64,000 nt of DNA from Parvicella tangerina (GTDB lineage Bacteria; Bacteroidota; Bacteroidia; Flavobacteriales_D; Parvicellaceae): contig NZ_OU015584.1 in assembly GCF_907165195.1 (NCBI RefSeq), positions 1,798,001 through 1,862,000 of the forward strand, in the 5' to 3' direction. Made by a program: the position numbers and the translations under genes. The notes under the pieces are model-generated. The model was not told the origin of the DNA. It worked only from the letters and a program-made list of their open reading frames with translations, and ran no database searches. Shown piece after piece: positions 1,615 to 48,311 of the stretch; position 1 is the stretch's first letter, and the number at the start of each line of letters is the position of its first letter.

Positions 1615-1899
1615 ATGAAAGATTATTGGGGTATAACCGACAACAGCATATCGACCCGACAGCGGTACGACTTAATCGCTGAGCATCAGTACAGGACTTA
1701 CAGTCAGATACATAAACGAGAGCAGAGAAAGCAACGAGAAAACGCCATAATCTCCAACATAGTGTTGGGGATTATATGGTATGTAATCATTCAACCAGCT
1801 ATTACATTGGTCAAATTTATTTTTTGGACCATAATTAGACTGTTTAGAGCCAAAAATCGCAATAATAGACCGAAAAATGGTAAAAACCAACCTAAATAA
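1615..1899 (+). CDS. Small membrane protein (94 aa)
   Basis: The ATG at 1615 is preferred over a GTG at 1606 because it lies just after the recombinase stop codon. The N-terminal half is hydrophilic and rich in Arg, Gln and Tyr. One long hydrophobic stretch (IVLGIIWYVIIQPAITLVKF) is followed by a very basic tail (RAKNRNNRPKNGKNQPK). It could be a single-pass or hairpin inner-membrane protein. No family was recognised. Close spacing suggests co-transcription with the recombinase and the following small frame. Confidence 0.5.
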   Translation: MKDYWGITDNSISTRQRYDLIAEHQYRTYSQIHKREQRKQRENAIISNIVLGIIWYVIIQPAITLVKFIFWTIIRLFRAKNRNNRPKNGKNQPK

Positions 1900-1907
1900 G
1901 CCAGAAA

Positions 1908-2078
1908 ATGAACAAAATATTAGGAATTCTCAATTATTATTCGTATCTATGTAACCACGGTAGAAAAATAAGCGGTTCTGAGGGAAACCTACCGAGTAAA
2001 AATCCCATTGTATCGAAATATCGGAACCACTACTACAAAGAAAATCAACTTAGTTTTGAGAAGCGTTCCATTTGGTAG
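1908..2078 (+). CDS. Small hypothetical protein (56 aa)
   Basis: The frame begins MNKILGILNYYSYLCNHGRK and starts 8 nt after the stop of the membrane protein gene, on the same strand. It is basic and Tyr/Asn-rich with no recognisable motif. The tight spacing is the main argument for it being real. Confidence 0.3.
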   Translation: MNKILGILNYYSYLCNHGRKISGSEGNLPSKNPIVSKYRNHYYKENQLSFEKRSIW

Positions 2079-2107
2079 CATCAGCTACTGAACTGGAATT
2101 TTTTTGT

Positions 2108-2305
2108 TTATGGTTTTCCCAAAAATCTAAAAAGATGCGATACAGAAAGAAGCAAAAAGACCCATAGGGCAACAGTAAAAACAGGATAACTGCTCTGGTT
2201 ATCCATAGTCCAATTATTCACTAAAAAATCATCAAATGCAGTAGCTCCAACTACCTGTACTGGGAGAGCTATGCCCAATTGTAAGCAAATTACTAAAAAC
2301 AACAA
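2108..2305 (-). CDS. Possible small two-pass membrane protein (65 aa)
   Basis: The translation has an N-terminal hydrophobic segment (MLFLVICLQLGIALPVQVVG) and a second one near the C-terminus (FTVALWVFLLLSVSHLF) separated by a polar loop. This pattern fits a small membrane protein or an exported one. It is antisense to the surrounding module, fills the only gap in it, and has no recognised relative, so it may be spurious. Confidence 0.25.
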   Translation of the reverse strand: MLFLVICLQLGIALPVQVVGATAFDDFLVNNWTMDNQSSYPVFTVALWVFLLLSVSHLFRFLGKP

Positions 2306-2310
2306 GTAAA

Positions 2311-2631
2311 ATGAATTTATCAGCAGATAGAAAAAAACAGATACAGAAGGATTTTAATAGAAATGTCCAAAGACGTTGTTTCGGAAAAGCCATTAGAATG
2401 GCAAAGTACTATAAGATTAAAGGAGTATTAGTTACTCGTAAAACTTTAAAAGAGGAGTACCAATTGTCAAACGAACAAATAAAGAAATTACAATTCATAG
2501 AGGTCGATAATCCTCATTTCAAATGCGCTGGCAATATGAAGCTTTATTTAAAAGCTCAAGCCAAACACATAAAAGCCAAAACCCCCAATATTCAAGGGAC
2601 TGCCATTAAAAATAAACAAAAAGACCATTAA
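2311..2631 (+). CDS. Hypothetical basic protein (106 aa)
   Basis: This is a Lys-rich soluble protein. The middle (TRKTLKEEYQLSNEQIKKL) could form a helix-turn-helix-like pair of helices, which would suit a small DNA-binding protein, but no family was recognised. It ends 15 nt before the ATPase gene on the same strand and is probably in one operon with it. Confidence 0.5.
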   Translation: MNLSADRKKQIQKDFNRNVQRRCFGKAIRMAKYYKIKGVLVTRKTLKEEYQLSNEQIKKLQFIEVDNPHFKCAGNMKLYLKAQAKHIKAKTPNIQGTAIKNKQKDH

Positions 2632-2646
2632 GCTAATAGTTAAAAC

Positions 2647-4929
2647 ATGAACGATAAAAACATATTAGAGGACCTGTTTACTTACTTCAGAAATGGCCTG
2701 TTTGCTGGTAAAGCGAACGCAGCTCAAAAGTTCTTACATCAAACGGGTATATCCCCAACGGATGTACATATAGGGTTTAATTCTGGCCAGTTCCATCACG
2801 GTAAGAGCGAAGAGTTTAGAAAGCCATTTATTGAGGCTGGGATACTCATTCCCAGTAACGCCCCTGTTAACTCCCCCGATAGAGTGGCCTATGGAACATT
2901 TGGTAAAGAGGCTATAGTATTCCCACTTAGGGACCAGTTCAACCAGATAGTAAATTTTTATGCCTACCGCATAAAGCTTAAAACCCCCAAAGGAGAGTAT
3001 TTGAATGAGGCTGGACTATACCCAAAATACCCGAAAAGCAATACTCAAAAACTGTACTTGGTCCATAATGAATTGGAAGCAGCAACGCTCATTCAATCTG
3101 ATGTGATGGACAACCGAGAAACAGTTATTGCCCTAAGAAATGGAGAACTACCAACTGAGCTGAGAAGCGTACTACAAAACCTAACAGAGCTAATCCAAAT
3201 AATTGTTGTTGGAAGCATTAGCCCAAACGCAAAACAGCAGCTAAATGAGTTAACTGAGAAAGCAATATACTTGGACCTACCAAACAACCATACGTTAAAC
3301 GATATGTGGTTAAACTATGGAGCTGAAGGAATGAGCGAGTTTTTGGAGTCAACCCAACCAGAGCAGACACCAGATGCGGAGAGAACGGGATTCTCCGCTC
3401 CAAAAGTGGGGCTAATCATCCATAACCCCAGAAAGTTAAGTTATAAGGGTAATGCAGCGTATTACTCCGTATTAGGTAGCCTTCCGAATGACCTCGGGAG
3501 TATGAAAGTTTCGCTACTGGTGGAGGATTACCAAACTGGAAAAAAGCACCGTCAGAAATTGGAGCTGTTTAGCACAATGGACTTGGAGGAGTTTGCCCAA
3601 AGAATTGGAGAAAAGGAGAGCCTAAATGCGAATGAAATGGTAATGGACCTTAGCACGTTAAGCGACCTACTTGAAGCTCACCGAGAGGAACAAATAGCCA
3701 TTATGTTCCCATCCCAAGGACAGCAGAAACAAAAGCAACCTCTGTCCAAAGATTTACAGGCCGAAGCAATGGAGTTTTTGCAGCAAAAAGGACTCTTAAC
3801 CAACATCGATAAGCTATTGGAACAATCGGGAATAGTTGGAGAGCATAACACCCGAATGATACTATTTGTCATTGCTTCCACCTACAAAATGCCGTATAAC
3901 CTCCACGCATTGGTACAGGCCAGTTCTGGGAGTGGTAAAAGCCACCTCATCAACTCAATTATGGAGTGCATACCCAAACATGAGGTAATGAATATGACCC
4001 GTGTTACCAGTAAGTCATTTTACCACTACACCAATAACGAACTGATAGATAAACTAATTGTAATACAGGACTTTGATGGTTTAGACGAAGAGGCACAGTT
4101 TGCCTTTCGGGAGATGCAGAGCGCAAAGTATTTGAGCAGCTCTACCACCCAAAAGGACCAATTCGGCAACCTACAGTCCTACATCCGAACCGTGAAAGCT
4201 CAATTTGCCTCCATAGCTGCGACCACCCGAATGGATATTTACAAGGACAACGAGAGCAGGAGTATTGTTATTGGAATAGATGAAAGTATGGAACAGACCC
4301 AAAATATCATCGATTACCAGAACAGGAAATTAGCTGGACTCATTGATGCAGAAAAGGAGGAACAAAACAAAGTGTTTCTACGAGCTTGTGTGGAGCTTTT
4401 AAAGCCCTCAGAGGTAATTAATCGATTTGCAGATAAGATTGCCTTACCAATGGATGCTAAGATGCTTAGGAGGCTTAACAGTCAGTTTCAATCTTTCGTT
4501 GCTCAGATAACCATACTCAACCAGTACCAAAGACAAAGGGATGAGCAAAATAGACTGATAACCACCCCAGAGGATGTGAGACAGGCTATTGATATATTCT
4601 TTGATGCTATAGTGCTAAAAGTGGATGAGCTGAACAGTTCAACCAGACAGTTTTATGAGGAGCTGAGAGACTATTTAAACGAGACAAAACCCCAACGAGG
4701 GGAGTTCTCCCAAAGAACCATTAGAGAGGCTCTAAAAATGGGTAAAACAAGTGTAGCAGCCTACATAAAAGAGCTGATAGAATTGGAGTATATCCGTGTT
4801 AGTAATGGTTCAGCAAATAGAGGGTTCAGATACCAGCTCACCGAGGACGATAAGATGAAACAAAAGCGAATAGCCATCAAAGAGGACCTGTATGGACAGT
4901 TGGATAAAATCAGTAATTCCAAAATGTAG
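2647..4929 (+). CDS. Primase-like / P-loop ATPase of mobile module 1 (760 aa)
   Basis: Residues about 15-230 resemble the DnaG catalytic core without its zinc finger: a GISPTDVHIGF-type segment, the core signature IVFPLRDQFNQIVNFYAYRI, and a Toprim-like strand KLYLVHNELEAATL near 136-150. The Toprim Glu is present, but the usual D-x-D is replaced by VGSIS, so priming activity is doubtful. A beta-rich middle (about 250-370) is shared with the ATPase of module 2. A P-loop domain follows, with Walker A SSGSGKSH near 427-434, Walker B LIVIQDFDG near 470-478, and a later ATTRMD segment. A winged helix occupies about 685-735 (FSQRTIREALKMGKTSVAAY). It sits directly before two tyrosine recombinase genes. 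A role as a replication or DNA-remodelling ATPase of the element is inferred. Confidence 0.7.
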   Translation: MNDKNILEDLFTYFRNGLFAGKANAAQKFLHQTGISPTDVHIGFNSGQFHHGKSEEFRKPFIEAGILIPSNAPVNSPDRVAYGTFGKEAIVFPLRDQFNQIVNFYAYRIKLKTPKGEYLNEAGLYPKYPKSNTQKLYLVHNELEAATLIQSDVMDNRETVIALRNGELPTELRSVLQNLTELIQIIVVGSISPNAKQQLNELTEKAIYLDLPNNHTLNDMWLNYGAEGMSEFLESTQPEQTPDAERTGFSAPKVGLIIHNPRKLSYKGNAAYYSVLGSLPNDLGSMKVSLLVEDYQTGKKHRQKLELFSTMDLEEFAQRIGEKESLNANEMVMDLSTLSDLLEAHREEQIAIMFPSQGQQKQKQPLSKDLQAEAMEFLQQKGLLTNIDKLLEQSGIVGEHNTRMILFVIASTYKMPYNLHALVQASSGSGKSHLINSIMECIPKHEVMNMTRVTSKSFYHYTNNELIDKLIVIQDFDGLDEEAQFAFREMQSAKYLSSSTTQKDQFGNLQSYIRTVKAQFASIAATTRMDIYKDNESRSIVIGIDESMEQTQNIIDYQNRKLAGLIDAEKEEQNKVFLRACVELLKPSEVINRFADKIALPMDAKMLRRLNSQFQSFVAQITILNQYQRQRDEQNRLITTPEDVRQAIDIFFDAIVLKVDELNSSTRQFYEELRDYLNETKPQRGEFSQRTIREALKMGKTSVAAYIKELIELEYIRVSNGSANRGFRYQLTEDDKMKQKRIAIKEDLYGQLDKISNSKM

Positions 4930-5009
4930 TGTTCACTTTTCAAAAACACCAAACCGAACGCCAGAACTCAACAATACTGTGCTATACGCCTTTGGCGTTC
5001 GGTGTTCAC
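4929..5009. repeat. Inverted repeat between ATPase and recombinase pair
   Basis: ACCGAACGCCA (4953-4963) and TGGCGTTCGGT (4993-5003) form an exact 11-bp inverted repeat. The sequence GTGTTCAC occurs on both sides (4930-4937 and 5003-5010) as a direct repeat. There is no T-run, so a terminator is unlikely. It could be a recombinase binding or crossover site, or an operator for the recombinase pair. Confidence 0.45.
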
Positions 5010-5040
5010 CAAAACATGACACACCCAAACTATTAAAACT

Positions 5041-5955
5041 ATGATTTTTCAAATTTCAAATAAGCAATACCAGTCCATCGAGAAGCAGTACGAAAAGTAC
5101 ATCCACGCTAAAGGGTACAAGATAACAGGAGGCAATATGTACCTTACTTGTGTTAACGAGTTCCTGTACTGGTTGGAAGGGTACGGAGTAACCAATGTCA
5201 AAAAGATAACTACAGCCATTATGGTTGAGTACATCGAGTACCTATCCACCAGAGAGAAGTTCAGAGGAGAGGGGACCCTAAGCCAACGAATGATTGATAT
5301 ACACCTGTTCAGCTTACGCATTCTCTTTGATTACCTTTTGGAGAGTAATATAGTTACTTCAACGGTCTCCATTCCTAAGTTCTTTAAAAGCGAGGGAAGA
5401 AAGAGAAATATACTCTCAATGGATGAGGTTAAGCTACTGTATGCTCATACTGAGAATAATTTGGAAAAGGCCATTTTAACTGTTGCGTATGGATGTGGCC
5501 TCAGACGAAATGAACTCCACCGATTGAACCTACAGGATGTAATACTAAGTAAAGGAATACTACAGGTAATAACGGGTAAGGGCAATAAGTCCAGAGAGGT
5601 CCCAATGAGCGATACAATTGTTACCTATTTGAGAGAGTATGTAACAACCGATAGAGTGGAGCGACTAAAAAGAACTACACAGTTGGAAAAGGCGTTTTTT
5701 GTCAACTCCCAAGGCAAACGAATGAGCGGGGATTTACTGAACAGGACCCTAAAAAAGATTATTCAGCGAACCGATAACCCCTCCATTAATTCAAAGGACA
5801 TCACGCTGCATTGTTTGAGACATTCCATTGCTACCCACCTCATCGAAAATGGGGCCAGTATGGAGTTTGTAAGAGACTTCTTGGGCCATGCGCTGGTAGA
5901 TACAGTTCACATCTATGCAAAGCGTAGAAAAATCAGACAGAAATATACACTATAA
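5041..5955 (+). CDS. Tyrosine recombinase A of module 1 (304 aa)
   Basis: This is a full-length XerC/D-like integrase. The N-terminal SAM-like core-binding domain covers about 1-110, and the catalytic domain about 125-304. All active-site residues are present: Arg in GCGLRRNEL (about 154), Lys in TGKGNK, H-x-x-R in LHCLRH (about 257-260), His in FLGHAL and Tyr in HIYAK. It is followed after 12 nt by a second, degenerate recombinase. The same A/B order occurs in module 2 (11792-13671), so the two probably act together as the element's integration or excision machinery. Confidence 0.9.
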   Translation: MIFQISNKQYQSIEKQYEKYIHAKGYKITGGNMYLTCVNEFLYWLEGYGVTNVKKITTAIMVEYIEYLSTREKFRGEGTLSQRMIDIHLFSLRILFDYLLESNIVTSTVSIPKFFKSEGRKRNILSMDEVKLLYAHTENNLEKAILTVAYGCGLRRNELHRLNLQDVILSKGILQVITGKGNKSREVPMSDTIVTYLREYVTTDRVERLKRTTQLEKAFFVNSQGKRMSGDLLNRTLKKIIQRTDNPSINSKDITLHCLRHSIATHLIENGASMEFVRDFLGHALVDTVHIYAKRRKIRQKYTL

Positions 5956-5967
5956 ACAAGAGAGACA

Positions 5968-6837
5968 ATGAGAAAAGAAACATTAGAGCAGTTCATTTAT
6001 TCGACCCACACAAGCAAAACGGCTGATAGTTATTTACGCAGTATTACAAAGTTCACAGCACAGGTTCCCAATGCCCCAGAAGCACAGTACAGGGATATTG
6101 TGGAGTATATGGTTGGAATACAGAAAAAGTACAAGGACTCGGCAACCCCAACCAGAATACTTGCAGCTATTAAAAGGTATTACGACTACCTACAGCTAAT
6201 GGGGGAACGAAATGACCATCCATGTAGGAGGTTTACCGTTAAGGTTAACTCAAATAGGACCATACGATTTGGTGAGCTTTTTACCCCTGATGAATTGGAA
6301 CTAATGCTTAACAAGGAGGAACGATATAAGGTTTTAAAACAGCGCAATATAGCTGTAGTAAGCTTATTGATTTACCAAGGGTTAACGATAGATGAATTAG
6401 TACGGTTAACTGTTAATGATATAGATTTGGATAATGCAACTGTGTATGTAAAAGCTTCAAAAAAGAATGCCAGAAGAACACTACAAATGAACTCAAAGCA
6501 AATTCTGATTTTTCTCAAATACATTGAAACTCGAAAGGAACTGATACAGAGAAATTCGGATAAACTGTTATTAAGTATTCGAGGGGTTCCAATTTCGGGG
6601 GATGGTATTAACTCAATTGTCGAAGGTTTTAAACCTTTATTCACCGATAGAAACCTAAACCCCAAAACAATAAGAATGAGCGTTATTGCCAATTGGTTGA
6701 ACGTGAACAAACGACCATTGGATGAGGTTCAATTAATGGCGGGACATAGGTGGCCAAGTAGTACAGAAAGGTATATTAGAAAGGACTTAACGGAGCAAAG
6801 AGAATTAATCAATAAGTTTCATCCGTTGAATGATTAA
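5968..6837 (+). CDS. Tyrosine recombinase B of module 1, degenerate active site (289 aa)
   Basis: It has the same fold as its neighbour: an N-terminal core-binding domain and a C-terminal catalytic domain. Box I reads QGLTIDEL, where intact relatives have G-L-R, so the first catalytic Arg (about position 140) is Thr. Box II reads PKTIRMS, with Lys replacing His but Arg kept. The later His (AGHRWPSS) and the Tyr (ERYI) are kept. The same two substitutions occur in recombinase B of module 2, which argues for a conserved non-standard role rather than decay. Its last 4 nt overlap the convergent toxin gene. Confidence 0.85.
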   Translation: MRKETLEQFIYSTHTSKTADSYLRSITKFTAQVPNAPEAQYRDIVEYMVGIQKKYKDSATPTRILAAIKRYYDYLQLMGERNDHPCRRFTVKVNSNRTIRFGELFTPDELELMLNKEERYKVLKQRNIAVVSLLIYQGLTIDELVRLTVNDIDLDNATVYVKASKKNARRTLQMNSKQILIFLKYIETRKELIQRNSDKLLLSIRGVPISGDGINSIVEGFKPLFTDRNLNPKTIRMSVIANWLNVNKRPLDEVQLMAGHRWPSSTERYIRKDLTEQRELINKFHPLND

Positions 6838-7121
6838 AACTTGTTTTGAGTTCTGTTTGGAACGAGTGTTACTATAGTGATGATTCTTCCCTCAACCTCA
6901 TAAATTATTGATGTTTGCTTTGAAACGACACACTTATGTAGTTGAGCTAATTTTGACTTAGGGCAAAGGTGTTTATTCTCTCTCAATCCAGATTCGAGGC
7001 GATTCACTTTTGCTCTAAATTTCAAAGCAGCTTCCACGCCCCAATCGTCCAAAATCTCTGATATTAACTCTTGATAAATTAATTCGGCTTTGTCGGACCA
7101 GTCAACTGTATATTTAGGCAT
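6834..7121 (-). CDS. RelE/ParE-family toxin
   Basis: The 95-residue protein has the typical ParE layout: a short strand with a basic helix (MPKYTVDWSDKAELIYQEL), a second helix, then a beta-sheet with SIIYEVEGRIITIVTLV. Toxins of this superfamily block gyrase (ParE) or cleave ribosome-bound mRNA (RelE); which applies cannot be told from sequence. It overlaps the upstream antitoxin gene by 8 nt. It may stabilise the mobile module. Confidence 0.8.
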   Translation of the reverse strand: MPKYTVDWSDKAELIYQELISEILDDWGVEAALKFRAKVNRLESGLRENKHLCPKSKLAQLHKCVVSKQTSIIYEVEGRIITIVTLVPNRTQNKF

Positions 7122-7353
7122 GATTCTTAATTAAAGCTTCAATAGCCATATCAACCTCACTATGGGATTTTGTTTTCCCATTCTTAATGTCAGTCAAACC
7201 CTCTGAAACTGAGGCTTTATCCTCTTCTGTTAATTCTTCCCACCAATCACTACTATTGGATTTGATTGACTGATATATCACCTTTAATCGCTTTTCGTCT
7301 TCAATCGAAGAAATCAATTCAAAAATGTTGTATTTCAGTTCTGCTGTACTCAT
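7114..7353 (-). CDS. Antitoxin partner of the ParE-like toxin
   Basis: This small acidic helical protein (79 aa) has a central WWEELTEEDKASVSEGLTDI segment and a C-terminal VDMAIEALIKNHA tail. It is typical of the antitoxins found next to ParE-like toxins in Bacteroidota. The gene lies upstream of the toxin and overlaps it by 8 nt, so translation is probably coupled. Autorepression by the complex is usual for the family but is not shown here. Confidence 0.75.
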   Translation of the reverse strand: MSTAELKYNIFELISSIEDEKRLKVIYQSIKSNSSDWWEELTEEDKASVSEGLTDIKNGKTKSHSEVDMAIEALIKNHA

Positions 7354-7357
7354 AATA

Positions 7358-7365
7358 CAAATATA
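7358..7365 (-). promoter_or_regulatory. -7 box of the toxin-antitoxin operon
   Basis: On the minus strand TATATTTG matches the Bacteroidota -7 consensus TAnnTTTG and ends 4 nt before the antitoxin ATG. Transcription would begin at or next to the start codon, so the mRNA may be leaderless. No good -33 TTG is visible at the right distance. Confidence 0.45.
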
Positions 7366-7520
7366 ACGAGAAATCTTATATTTTGTTTCATTTTATGTTG
7401 GGTAGATTAATCCCATTCGCTATATTAGCATGATTAAAGAAAAGTTCTTTGAAAACCCCGTATTTGTGCGGTATTACTAATGAAGCGGGATAGTTGCTGT
7501 TAGAATAAATCTGGTCTAAT

Positions 7521-8468
7521 CCTTATAGATACGGATTCCAAGGACAGGAAAAGGATGATGAAGTTAAGGGTGCGGGTAACTCGATTAATTATGCATTTAG
7601 GATGCATGATCCTAGGTTGGGGAGGTTCTTTGCGGTGGACCCGTTGACGGCTAAATATCCCCATTACACCCCATATAGTTTTAGTGGGAATAAGGTTATT
7701 GCCTTTATTGAATTAGAAGGAATGGAGGAATTATCCGCAATAACCGTAAATAAAGAGAAGTGGACGGGAACGATTGACTTATCTAAAACAGAAAATCGAT
7801 CTACCAAAGAAGCTATTGAAAAACAAACAGGTATCAAACTTGGAGCTAATGATATTGTTACATTTGACTATCAAGGAGGGATTCTTGCAAATAACTCATA
7901 TTTACAGACGATTAATGTCTCAAGTGCTGGTCAAAAAACAAAGAAACACCAGATTTCTGTTGAGAGAGAGGAAGTTCCAGTTTTTGAAGGCACAGGAAGA
8001 GTTACTGTTGGAGTACAAGGAGGGTTTGAAACAAGACTTGGTGGAGAACACTTTGGAGTTGAACTTAATGCTGTTAATGTTGAATTAGGAGAATTAACAG
8101 TAAGTCAGCGGTATGACAGCGATGCTCCAGTAAAATTTGAAGCTGACTATATAGGAAAGGATCATAGGGTTGAAGTATCTCAATCTATTGGGCTAGAGCT
8201 GGGAATTGTAGGCTATAATGTTGAGAGGTCATTTGAAATTGATACTAGGACTGGGAATGATTATGGTGAAGAAATCACGGAACGTTATAATGTCGGCCCT
8301 ATTATGGGGGAAGAAGGAAGTGAGCAACTAAATGGACACACAACAACTTCTAAGAGTTTTATTGGAGTGGACATAGGGTTTAAAGGAGCACTGATTCTTG
8401 GTGTTGATGTTGGCGTTAAGTCTGGTAAAGAAATAATTACTACTAAAACAGAAACAAAAAACTATTAA
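7521..8468 (+). pseudogene. 5'-truncated Rhs protein with C-terminal variable domain
   Basis: The frame opens after a stop just upstream and reads PYRYGFQGQEKDDE, then RMHDPRLGRFFAVDP and YSFSGNKVIAF, the hallmark end of the Rhs core. Only the last ~70 core residues remain, and the long YD-repeat shell is absent. The first in-frame ATG is at 7602, inside the core motif. After EGMEE comes a variable domain of about 240 residues with repeated beta-strands (GVQGGFETRLGGEHFGVELN) and no recognised toxin motif. In intact Rhs proteins this position carries the toxin. The next gene encodes a lipoprotein that could be its immunity partner. It is probably an orphan Rhs tip. Confidence 0.7.
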
Positions 8469-8471
8469 TTT

Positions 8472-9182
8472 TTGGACACAAAAAAAAGCATATTAAAGCT
8501 ACTTTTTTGCTTTTTATTGTTCATTAGTTCTTGTGGAATGTCAAACGATTCGCAACCACCTAGTGATAAAGCCAAGAGTGATTTAGAAAAGGTAAATGAA
8601 TACAACAGTCTGAAAAATGAGTTTCAAAATTATTATAATGGACAATGCGAAATTTCAGAAACTTTTTCAAATAGCTCCAAGTCACTAGTGGTTGAGCTAA
8701 TCAGCTCCGAAATACCAGAAGACAGGCTTAGTTTGAGTGCATCAAGAGTGTCTTATCTTACCTTTCAGAAAGTTTCAAACAACTTTGATAGTTATACTAT
8801 AACAATTAACGAAAAAAGTTTTAATTATGATTCCGAAACACTCACTCGAATAGTTACTTCTGATTCTCTTACAGGAGAAGTTGTAGCGTTGCTAAAAGAA
8901 GGAGACTATCTAGCTCTAAAAAAGCTGTTCATTCAAGAAAACCCATATAACCTCAATCTGTCCGAATTCATTTCAAAACTTGAATCTTCCGAAATGAAGT
9001 TACCTCCAATTACTGAAGGGTATAGATTCATTGGGTTTGATGTTTTCCCCAACAATGACATTAGAATTTACGGATTAGTTATTAGGGAAGGAATGATTAC
9101 CAACCTAACGATTGAGTTTATTGAGAGGCAAAAAAAACAATTTATCGCACTTATTGATTATAATTTACTAACCACAGGCTAG
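8472..9182 (+). CDS. Putative lipoprotein, possible immunity protein
   Basis: The gene starts at a TTG 3 nt after the Rhs fragment. The N-terminus has a basic start, a hydrophobic core and a lipobox ending in FISSC, so it is predicted to be a lipoprotein. The rest (236 aa total) is mixed alpha/beta with no recognised domain. Position directly behind an Rhs C-terminal domain suggests an immunity role, but this is inferred from context only. Confidence 0.5.
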   Translation: MDTKKSILKLLFCFLLFISSCGMSNDSQPPSDKAKSDLEKVNEYNSLKNEFQNYYNGQCEISETFSNSSKSLVVELISSEIPEDRLSLSASRVSYLTFQKVSNNFDSYTITINEKSFNYDSETLTRIVTSDSLTGEVVALLKEGDYLALKKLFIQENPYNLNLSEFISKLESSEMKLPPITEGYRFIGFDVFPNNDIRIYGLVIREGMITNLTIEFIERQKKQFIALIDYNLLTTG

Positions 9183-9210
9183 GGGTGCCTGTTTAGGTAG
9201 AATGATTTTG

Positions 9211-9555
9211 TCAACCCCCCTCAATTAAATTCAAGATTACTATTATTATTGGGACAACGGTGAAAAAAGAAATCCATAAGATTGCAACAGCCTTATTATG
9301 TTTTTTTCTTGCCATTGAGACTTCAATACTTTCATTTTTTTCCTTAACTAGGGGTATAGGTGCACGAAACCAATATTCGTTTCCCCCCATCCAACTTCCT
9401 CCATTTTTACCTATAAAATAACCAGTGCCTTTTTCTTTCCATCCTGGTTCTTCCTTTCTCTTTAAGCTTAGAAAGGTATTGTAATGAAAGTGAATCAAAA
9501 AAAAAAGGACTACAATATATACTACTAAAAATGAAACTAGAATAGTGCTCAGCAT
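9211..9555 (-). CDS. Two-pass membrane protein co-transcribed with XRE regulator
   Basis: Of 114 residues, one hydrophobic segment covers 3-25 (TILVSFLVVYIVVLFFLIHF) and a second about 88-109 (VAILWISFFTVVPIIIVILN), with a polar loop of about 60 residues between. Its start overlaps the stop of the XRE gene (TAATG), which implies translational coupling. No family was recognised. A repressor paired with a membrane protein could be a small toxin-antitoxin-like or element maintenance unit. Confidence 0.55.
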   Translation of the reverse strand: MLSTILVSFLVVYIVVLFFLIHFHYNTFLSLKRKEEPGWKEKGTGYFIGKNGGSWMGGNEYWFRAPIPLVKEKNESIEVSMARKKHNKAVAILWISFFTVVPIIIVILNLIEGG

Positions 9556-9890
9556 TACAAAGTTTTCAGTTTAGCAGATCTAAGCAAGTTATCGAGGGCA
9601 TAAAGTATTCCTTTTCTATCTTCCTCCTGCAAGTTTTTAATATCCTTTAATCGTTGCATCATTTTAGGATCTTTCAATAGGTTATCATCCTCCGTCTCAC
9701 CAATTAAGTACCCCACAGACGTATTGAGTAAATCCGCAATCTTTTTAGCTGTATCAATACCTGGAGTCATCTCATCACGTTCGTATCTAGAAATTACACT
9801 CACAGAAGTGTTTAGCTTTTTAGCCAGTTCGGTTTGAGAAAGTTTGAGTTCCTTTCTAAGAGCTGCTATTTTTTTACCAAAAGTCATCAT
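9555..9890 (-). CDS. XRE-family transcriptional repressor
   Basis: This 111-residue protein has a Cro/CI-type helix-turn-helix at about 8-62 (LKLSQTELAKKLNTSVSVIS followed by the R-Y-E-R and P-G-I-D motif). A C-terminal helical tail is probably for dimerisation. It is divergent from the module 2 ATPase. The intergenic region contains three copies of an ACCkTAAACGr-like half-palindrome, one of them overlapping the ATPase promoter. It therefore probably represses both itself and the ATPase-recombinase operon, as lysogeny-type regulators do. Confidence 0.85.
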   Translation of the reverse strand: MMTFGKKIAALRKELKLSQTELAKKLNTSVSVISRYERDEMTPGIDTAKKIADLLNTSVGYLIGETEDDNLLKDPKMMQRLKDIKNLQEEDRKGILYALDNLLRSAKLKTL

Positions 9891-46409: not shown

Positions 46410-46424
46410 TATGGTGTAACCATA
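46410..46424. promoter_or_regulatory. Palindromic operator candidate upstream of phhA leader
   Basis: TATGGT-GTA-ACCATA is a perfect 6-bp inverted repeat with a 3-nt centre. It lies 14-28 nt upstream of the -7 box, overlapping the -33 position, where no TTG is present. An activator binding here could replace a weak -33 element. Confidence 0.4.
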
Positions 46425-46438
46425 AATAAAAACAGTCG

Positions 46439-46446
46439 TATATTTG
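46439..46446 (+). promoter_or_regulatory. -7 box of the phh operon
   Basis: TATATTTG fits TAnnTTTG. It ends 4 nt before the leader peptide ATG, so the transcript should begin at or within a few bases of that AUG. Confidence 0.6.
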
Positions 46447-46450
46447 AACT

Positions 46451-46495
46451 ATGAATTTTAACAACAATACCTATTATTATTTCTTGTCCAACTAG
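46451..46495 (+). CDS. Tyr/Phe leader peptide of the phenylalanine hydroxylase operon (14 aa)
   Basis: The frame reads MNFNNNTYYYFLSN, stop, with three Tyr codons followed by Phe. Directly after the stop codon, GGTCAGG (46495-46501) repeats the 3' arm of the downstream terminator and can pair with its 5' arm. A ribosome stalled at the Tyr codons leaves this segment free; a ribosome at the stop codon covers it. This is the arrangement of amino-acid-responsive attenuation, and tyrosine is the product of the downstream enzyme. Confidence 0.8.
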   Translation: MNFNNNTYYYFLSN

Positions 46496-46535
46496 GTCAG
46501 GAGTTAATTTTGGTATTCAATATATTATTAACACG

Positions 46536-46570
46536 AGCCCTGATCAATTTGGTCAGGGCTTTTTATTTTT
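46536..46570 (+). terminator. Attenuator terminator before phhA
   Basis: AGCCCTGATC pairs with GGTCAGGGCT (10 bp, one G-U, 5-nt loop), followed by TTTTATTTTT. It ends 6 nt before the phhA ATG, so it can only serve as a premature terminator of this operon. The competing antiterminator pairs 46495-46501 with 46539-46545 (7 bp, one G-U). Confidence 0.85.
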
Positions 46571-46576
46571 AAGAAT

Positions 46577-47305
46577 ATGAGACAAGAATACGACAAGTAC
46601 ACCGCAGAAGACATGAAGGTCTGGAGGACGCTGTTCGAGAGACAAATCGAAAATCTTCAAGGCAAGGCATGTAGTGATTACCTGCAGTGTCTGGAGGAAA
46701 TGTCAGGAGTTTTGAATGCGGATAAAATTCCTAACTTTGAAGAACTCAACGCCTGGTTATTAGGCCAGACAGGGTGGCAGATTGAAGTAGTTCCAGGAAT
46801 GATCCCTGTGGACGAATTCTTCGAGTTGCTGAGTCAGAAGAAGTTTTGTTCCAGTACTTGGCTGAGGTCGTGGGAGCAATTAGATTACCTGGATGAACCA
46901 GATATGTTTCATGATATATTCGGGCACGTTCCTTTGCTAGCCAATCCTGTCTTTTCAGAATTCGTTTTAGAATTTGCTAAAATGGGAAAAGAGGCGATAG
47001 GTGATGAAGAAAAATTGATCCAATTACAGCGCTTATACTGGTTTACCATAGAGTTTGGTTTGATGAGAGAGAGGGGGGAACTAAAGATCTATGGAGCGGG
47101 GATCATGTCAAGCTTTGGTGAAAGTAAAACCTCTATCGCAGAAGACATGACGCATCATGCTTACGATATTCAGACTATTCTGAACAAGCATTTTGTAAAC
47201 AATGAGCCACAGACGGAGTACTTTGTAATTAATTCTTTAGAACAGTTGTATGAATCTATTTTAGATTTGAAGAGAAATTCTAACTTAGCAGAAAAGATGA
47301 GCTAA
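46577..47305 (+). CDS. phhA: Phenylalanine 4-monooxygenase
   Basis: This iron- and tetrahydropterin-dependent aromatic hydroxylase (242 aa) converts phenylalanine to tyrosine. The iron ligands are visible as His-His in MFHDIFGHVPLL (about 112 and 117) and Glu in WFTIEFGL (about 159). It lacks an N-terminal ACT regulatory domain, as bacterial forms do. The operon also contains the pterin-recycling phhB, two genes downstream. An upstream Tyr/Phe leader suggests induction when charged tRNA-Tyr is scarce, so a biosynthetic rather than purely degradative role is likely. Confidence 0.95.
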   Translation: MRQEYDKYTAEDMKVWRTLFERQIENLQGKACSDYLQCLEEMSGVLNADKIPNFEELNAWLLGQTGWQIEVVPGMIPVDEFFELLSQKKFCSSTWLRSWEQLDYLDEPDMFHDIFGHVPLLANPVFSEFVLEFAKMGKEAIGDEEKLIQLQRLYWFTIEFGLMRERGELKIYGAGIMSSFGESKTSIAEDMTHHAYDIQTILNKHFVNNEPQTEYFVINSLEQLYESILDLKRNSNLAEKMS

Positions 47306-48066
47306 TGAGAGTATTGTTACTTGTGATGTTGACGTTAGTCAGTATCATTTGTTATACGCAAATTGAGGATCCCGCGGACTATTCTTTGCAAGAAGAGTCG
47401 AAACTGAAAAACCGAATAAAAATAGGCCTGGCAGAGGCTTTTGCTGGTGAACTATTCTACAGTTATGAAAGAAGGTTCGGTGATCATATCTGGGGTGAAT
47501 TTGGTATCGGATTGACAAATTTGTATTTCGGAGAATGGTTTCTGCTAAAAAGTGAGAGATTTACTGACGAGATCGCTCCTGTAGATTTTGATTCGCCCAT
47601 CCAAAACAGATATGGAAAAATGGCTAAGTTCGGTATTACTTTCGTGACTCGCGAAGAGGAGAGTAGTGCAATTTATGGTACAGTTTATTTTGGAGGAGAG
47701 TTTGATTACAAGGAGTTTCGATTTTCCCAGTTACAGAAAGTTGATGGATTAGCAAAAGATAATTATGGCGATGAACAACTTTGGTTAACTAATACTTTTT
47801 ACGGAATTCGGGCAAAGGCTGGAGCGAATCTTTACTTTGGAGCATTTAGAAATAAAAGAGGAAAGTTAAGGTCTTATGGTTTAGATTATAGCGTTGGCCT
47901 TGGACTGGCATATCTGCAAATTCAGCGATATGATGAAGAAGAAACAGTGACTCCATCAATGACAATTCAAAATAGAGATGAATACTCATACACCTACGCA
48001 AGTAATCTAGTGACCAAGGTTCGTCCTACATTCCACGTGAGCATTAAATTTTTCTATTCTTTATGA
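47305..48066 (+). CDS. Secreted beta-rich protein in the phh operon (253 aa)
   Basis: A signal peptide (MRVLLLVMLTLVSIICYTQI) is followed by a protein with alternating beta-strand character (ELFYSYERRFGDHIWGEFGI; TVYFGGEFDYKEFRF) ending in FHVSIKFFYSL. A terminal aromatic strand is typical of outer-membrane beta-barrels. It overlaps phhA by 1 nt and phhB by 4 nt, so it is translationally coupled to both. A link between an outer-membrane protein and phenylalanine hydroxylation is not known to me. Confidence 0.6.
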   Translation: MRVLLLVMLTLVSIICYTQIEDPADYSLQEESKLKNRIKIGLAEAFAGELFYSYERRFGDHIWGEFGIGLTNLYFGEWFLLKSERFTDEIAPVDFDSPIQNRYGKMAKFGITFVTREEESSAIYGTVYFGGEFDYKEFRFSQLQKVDGLAKDNYGDEQLWLTNTFYGIRAKAGANLYFGAFRNKRGKLRSYGLDYSVGLGLAYLQIQRYDEEETVTPSMTIQNRDEYSYTYASNLVTKVRPTFHVSIKFFYSL

Positions 48067-48311
48067 TAAGCTGGAAAGTTAAAAACGATTATTTAGTCAA
48101 AACCTTTGAGCTATCATCCTTCACCGAATGTGTGGATCTATTGAATGAAGTAACTGATATTGCTGAAGAATTACAACATCACCCAGATGTTTCTATTAAG
48201 GATTATAAGTATATCACATTTAAGTTGAGGACGCATGATGCAGATGCTGTTACTGATCAGGATTGGCAGTTGGCAAAAGCAATAGATGATCTCCAAAGGA
48301 GTCTTTCGTAG
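48063..48311 (+). CDS. phhB: Pterin-4a-carbinolamine dehydratase
   Basis: This 82-aa protein has the family signature: an N-terminal W-K, then AEELQHHPDVSIKDYKYIT and LRTHDADAVTDQDWQLAKAID. It dehydrates the hydroxylated pterin released by PhhA so it can be reduced again. It overlaps the preceding gene by 4 nt. Its presence confirms the assignment of phhA. Confidence 0.93.
   Translation: MISWKVKNDYLVKTFELSSFTECVDLLNEVTDIAEELQHHPDVSIKDYKYITFKLRTHDADAVTDQDWQLAKAIDDLQRSLS

Follow-up and report, generated by a model that had tools for sequence, protein, structure and literature searches.

A predicted tyrosine-sensing leader-peptide attenuator upstream of phhA in Parvicella tangerina and across Bacteroidia

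In Parvicella tangerina, the DNA between phhA and its upstream neighbor appears to encode a transcription attenuator of the ribosome-mediated type, in which charged tRNA-Tyr is the signal and phhA, probably together with phhB, is the target. We assign this reading a probability of about 90%. The window in which it lies is a 64,000-nt stretch of contig NZ_OU015584.1, and all features of the window named below are on the forward strand. The leader open reading frame (ORF) and its tyrosine codons can be read from the sequence and from its comparison with relatives, and so can the pairings that exclude one another, the spacing of these elements, and the conservation of them all. If the reading is right, tyrosine joins the amino acids sensed by classical leader-peptide attenuation, and an aromatic amino acid hydroxylase joins its targets.

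The candidate regulated gene, phhA (46577 to 47305), encodes a phenylalanine 4-monooxygenase according to both Pfam (PF00351, E = 2.7e-46) and NCBIfam, and phhB (48063 to 48311) encodes a pterin-4a-carbinolamine dehydratase (PF01329, E = 7.6e-20). The preliminary description of this DNA had named a phhA-phhB pair; both genes are present, but they are not directly adjacent, because a 253-aa ORF (47305 to 48066) without a Pfam match and with a likely signal peptide is wedged between them. Its start codon overlaps the phhA stop codon, it also overlaps phhB, and both it and phhB probably belong to the same operon as phhA.

The leader and its alternative structures

The leader ORF (46451 to 46495) reads ATG AAT TTT AAC AAC AAT ACC TAT TAT TAT TTC TTG TCC AAC TAG, 14 codons that translate as MNFNNNTYYYFLSN followed by the stop. 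Its putative sensor is the run of three TAT codons, YYY (46472 to 46480). As the preliminary description had it, the 14-aa frame is followed by GGTCAGG (46495 to 46501), whose first G is also the final base of the leader stop codon, and then by an intrinsic terminator (46535 to 46561) with a second GGTCAGG in its 3' arm (46551 to 46557). The repeat extends to 13 nt, CAACTAGGTCAGG and CAATTTGGTCAGG, with 11 of 13 positions identical. The terminator stem has 12 pairs and a loop of 3 nt, followed by a TTTTTATTTTT-type tail; the U-tract (46562 to 46570) stops 6 nt short of the phhA ATG, again as described. Folding of the whole leader is much stronger than that of its own shuffles (z = -5.7).

Four regions can be assigned within this sequence, and their computed layout, with mutually exclusive pairings, is that of a trp/phe-type attenuator. 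Region 1, TTCTTGTCC (46481 to 46489), pairs in the fold of ribosome-free RNA with region 2, GGTCAGGAG (46495 to 46503), to give a 1:2 hairpin of -7.6 kcal/mol. With positions 46451 to 46490 masked, as by a ribosome on the tyrosine codons, and before the 3' arm of the terminator has been synthesized, region 2 acts as the 5' arm of an antiterminator and pairs with 46536 to 46545 (-13.8 kcal/mol), a segment that includes region 3, CCTGATC (46539 to 46545), which antiterminator and terminator have in common. With the leader masked to 46506, to mimic a ribosome that has reached the stop codon, the 3:4 terminator forms; its hairpin alone reaches -18.6 kcal/mol. The earlier proposal that the two GGTCAGG copies compete for the 5' arm of the terminator finds support in the exclusive 2:3 and 3:4 pairings; the 2:3 pairing is locus specific in relatives as well. 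Since the terminator is the more stable structure at equilibrium, the switch must be kinetic, like the classical cases. Region 1, together with the promoter box discussed below, was absent from the preliminary description.

We infer the transcription start, the stalling, the read-through, and the response to tyrosine as follows. RNA polymerase would start at or near the leader AUG, so that a ribosome could load on the 5' end of the transcript. When Tyr-tRNA is scarce, the ribosome would stall on the three tyrosine codons and mask region 1, with region 2 still accessible from 46495 onward; the latter would then pair with region 3, the terminator would be blocked, and transcription of phhA would lead to production of tyrosine from phenylalanine. 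When Tyr-tRNA is ample, the ribosome would reach the stop codon and mask region 2, allowing 3:4 to pair and transcription to end just before phhA. Without translation, the 1:2 pairing would likewise leave the terminator free to form.

Such a mechanism places demands on distance and on complementarity, and both can be followed across related loci. When a Tyr codon occupies its A site, a ribosome covers about 10 nt past that codon, so that a region 2 freed by stalling is expected to begin approximately there. In the window it begins 14 nt past the last Tyr codon, and 14 nt is also the median distance among the 44 loci in which regions 2 and 3 pair at -8 kcal/mol or better; 82% of these 44 loci have a start 11 to 17 nt past the last Tyr codon, compared with 13% of shuffles. 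In nearly all loci, region 2 begins at the stop codon or before it, and it is paired upstream in the minimum-free-energy fold of 57 of 59 leaders, a count that comes without a direct null. Across the 59 nonredundant loci, the pairing of region 2 with the 5' arm of its own terminator sums to -566.9 kcal/mol, versus -457.4 ± 14.5 kcal/mol for permuted partners (z = -7.6; none of 20,000 permutations was equally good). The single-locus shuffle gives p ≤ 0.05 in just 47% of loci, and the duplex is weaker than -8 kcal/mol in 15 of 59. Arms that have diverged in sequence remain complementary, as in L047 (CAGAGG/CCTCTG), L022 (TGGACAGGAT/ATCCTAGTCCA), and L097 (CGGGAAC/GTTCCCG).

The same spacing would fit any stall at the Tyr run, and the leader peptide is short with a fixed aromatic run, which brings to mind arrest peptides such as TnaC with tryptophan; here, the nascent peptide would stall the ribosome by sensing free tyrosine or phenylalanine rather than uncharged tRNA. 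We consider this improbable, although it fares best among the alternatives. Unlike in arrest peptides, the sequence outside the Tyr run is not conserved (compare MNFNNNTYYYFLSN, MSPTYYYSPLPIGFMQ, and MCYYYGFLAGVA), and the logic of the structures requires a stall when tyrosine is low, which arrest by a free amino acid would invert.

The promoter is the remaining element of the leader. A match to the Bacteroidota sigma-A -7 box, TATATTTG, lies at 46439 to 46446, and no -33 element is evident in the window. In Flavobacterium psychrophilum, one report places TAnnTTTG at -12 to -5 (PMC9723704), and with that spacing, transcription is predicted to start at 46451, on the first base of the leader ATG. 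The box is located exactly 4 nt upstream of the leader ATG in the window, as it is in 17 of 59 loci; 36 of 59 have it 4 to 9 nt upstream, against an expectation of about 1% per 7-nt slot. We therefore predict that the leader mRNA is leaderless or nearly so. Only a minority of mRNAs in Bacteroidota are leaderless: the same report gives 5.5% for F. psychrophilum (PMC9723704), and about 3.7% of 5' untranslated regions in Bacteroides thetaiotaomicron are shorter than 10 nt (PMC7366714). The predicted start offers a handle on how translation of the leader initiates in bacteria that largely lack Shine-Dalgarno sequences.

Conservation across Bacteroidia and the specificity for tyrosine

PhhA genes were gathered, with their upstream DNA, from the family, order, and class of the window and from named genomes. 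A leader was scored when an ORF containing 3 or more Tyr residues within 5 codons ended shortly before a terminator that itself lay within 500 nt upstream of the gene. A terminator within this distance is present in 87 of 158 distinct PhhA upstream regions, and 66 of these 87 also have the Tyr-run ORF. These 66 loci span at least 17 families of Bacteroidia. The remaining 92 upstream regions have no strict leader, and several of them belong to phhA copies inside other operons. Neither the phhA genes of proteobacteria (0 of 16) nor the separate long family of approximately 590-aa PAH genes (0 of 16) passes the test. On a tree of 93 PhhA proteins, presence of the leader requires 13 changes versus 27.8 with shuffled labels, which suggests that the leader is old or has been repeatedly regained; the protein of the window falls within a clade of 16, 13 of which have a leader. 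The three other genomes of the genus that were searched, two of them incomplete, contain no phhA, so conservation becomes visible only from the family level up. The preliminary description would have been contradicted by leader codons or pairings that relatives do not share; in the relatives compared, the Tyr runs are conserved, as are the spacing and the complementarity between region 2 and the terminator, and these features covary.

The hairpin could instead do no more than end transcription of the upstream gene, or it could act constitutively as a partial terminator, with the small ORF there by chance. Terminators are indeed common: in the same DNA, with phhA-like and other ORFs sorted by blastp, a terminator was found within 500 nt of 31 of the 204 other genes. 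However, the full layout of ORF and terminator is found upstream of 32 of 79 phhA-like ORFs versus only 1 of 204 other genes, that one being pheA. In the window, moreover, the hairpin lies approximately 260 nt past the stop codon of the upstream gene (46276), yet 15 nt before phhA. The accompaniment of phhA by an ORF/terminator pair across families, and the locus-specific antiterminator pairing, also speak against a plain terminator, which we rate as slightly less probable still than peptide arrest.

Tyrosine is the only residue with a run conserved at such a level. When the identical run test was applied to other residues in the 158 regions, Leu passed in 22, Ser in 7, Ile in 5, Phe in 1, Trp in 0, and each of the rest in at most 7. 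The preliminary description had suggested a joint Tyr/Phe sensor. The tyrosine part of this stands, with 66 loci and 21% of leader residues; the phenylalanine part falls away, as Phe runs are absent (the single locus mentioned) and Phe makes up 4% of residues. A TAT microsatellite was considered and rejected, since the Tyr codons of the leaders mix TAT and TAC (177/48); runs of Ile or Leu in the other frames are also fewer.

That in-frame Tyr codons are the conserved part also speaks against control of the terminator by a ligand-binding riboswitch, a T-box, or an RNA-binding protein, with the ORF being incidental. All of these can act through a terminator in the 5' untranslated region, and tyrosine-specific transcription attenuation is known for T-boxes (PMC1262725). 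Nevertheless, an Rfam scan of the window gave no match at gathering score, T-box included, and the leader offers short alternating helices rather than a conserved structured domain; we regard this as very unlikely. Least likely of all is that the ORF chiefly raises phhA translation through reinitiation without sensing tyrosine, as has been proposed for Bacteroidetes among others with leader genes 11 to 14 bp from the gene (PMC4833913), since the leader stop codon lies 81 nt from phhA with the terminator in between and such a model gives no reason for Tyr runs.

A second operon in relatives provides a counterpart to the putative tyrosine attenuator. In a genome of the same genus that lacks phhA, the operon pheA-aspC-tyrA-aroG has the same layout upstream, with a terminator and the Phe-rich leader MKTTITYPFYYFFFTKKG (L127:3182-3285, reverse complement of the locus). 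Phe/Tyr-rich leaders with a terminator before these genes were found as well in L130:2696-2837 and, on the reverse complement of each locus, in L131:2818-2958, L133:1933-2078, and L134:1898-2034; NFYFYFFW occurs in others. The choice of codons in the leader thus follows what the regulated genes make, and the Tyr-only phhA leader, set beside the Phe-rich pheA-tyrA leader of related genomes, provides a clean natural experiment on codon specificity.

Two groups of loci depart from the common pattern. The PhhA leaders of L172, L180, L183, and L185 mix His and Tyr (for example, MNPTPRTYVHHSYHFLQ and MNQTYHSYSHYHTSFWG) in ORFs that end approximately 37 to 45 nt before the terminator, and the mixture suggests a possible second signal. 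In L154, L158, and L196, all from one family (f61), a terminator precedes phhA and the sequence before it has no Tyr run, reading GVGLYCRY in L154 and GVGLHCRY in L158; these may be a different or degenerate switch.

Relation to known attenuators

The proposed phhA leader shares with the enterobacterial attenuators trpL, pheL, and hisL (the Phe_leader/Trp_leader class of Rfam) a short ORF in which codons for the end product form a run, a layout of regions 1 to 4 with exclusive 2:3 and 3:4 pairings and a predicted 1:2 pairing, and an intrinsic terminator right before the gene. It differs from them in its Tyr codons, in its target, which is a hydroxylase and not an enzyme of the chorismate branch, in its phylum, in its predicted leaderless start, and in having no Rfam match. 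Attenuators with leaderless leader ORFs occur in Actinobacteria; there the ORF begins at the 5' end of the transcript, as is predicted here, and phylum and amino acids differ. The Tyr T-box riboswitches of tyrS in Firmicutes attenuate transcription specifically in response to the charging of tRNA-Tyr, as is proposed for the phhA leader, but they do so through direct binding of the tRNA, and a leader ORF plays no part in them.

A survey published in 2010 extended leader peptides to Firmicutes, having known them from Proteobacteria and Actinobacteria alone (PMC2965389); an earlier one assigned control by tyrosine to T-boxes (PMC1262725). The closest precedent comes from F. psychrophilum, for which clues to leader-peptide attenuation before amino acid operons have been reported, among them 5' elements that are conserved at pheA and at hisG (PMC9723704). 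These elements belong to the same phylum and point to the same mechanism, which, going by that account, is not new to Bacteroidota, and the Phe-rich leaders before pheA-aspC-tyrA-aroG look like its pheA element; the available text of the account names neither phhA nor tyrosine nor leaderless leaders. In the open-access literature searched, we found no Tyr leader peptide, no attenuated phhA, and no paper joining phhA with a leader peptide. The mechanism is therefore already known, and what we did not find described there is the specificity for tyrosine, the phhA target, and the distribution.

PhhA and tyrosine supply

Aromatic amino acid hydroxylases of bacteria are usually regarded as catabolic. 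The genome of P. tangerina, a single contig estimated as 99.8% complete, has chorismate synthase and three matches to the DAHP-synthase family, and a profile search of it gave no match for prephenate dehydratase (PheA). Its sole candidate for TyrA (prephenate dehydrogenase), a PDH_N match, was rejected, as its sequence reads as ProC. With chorismate made and neither PheA nor TyrA detectable, the genome should need phenylalanine and make tyrosine via PhhA, which is probably its only source of tyrosine.

A profile-based survey of 399 genomes drawn from the order bears on how general this is. By the profiles used, the majority of sampled genomes have neither prephenate dehydratase nor tyrA. Where prephenate dehydratase is present, phhA and tyrA tend not to occur together: phhA is found in 25 of 37 genomes without tyrA versus 2 of 12 that have it (Fisher p = 0.003, uncorrected for phylogeny). 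The predicted attenuator indicates that, in many Bacteroidota, PhhA serves to supply tyrosine and is controlled by its end product. The wider proposition, that in much of Bacteroidia PhhA is an anabolic tyrosine synthase that replaces TyrA by converting Phe to Tyr, as in animals, under a widespread Tyr attenuator with a leaderless leader peptide, is one on which we judge the odds to be even.

Two individual loci show other fates of the gene. In the same family as the window, phhA closes a trp operon after a DAHP-synthase-like gene and has no leader of its own, with identities read from sequence (L126 of G007, reverse complement, 1747 to 9819). In L005/L010 (G005:C10:38369-39134), phhA is interrupted by several stop codons, and the gene is intact in other members of that genus.
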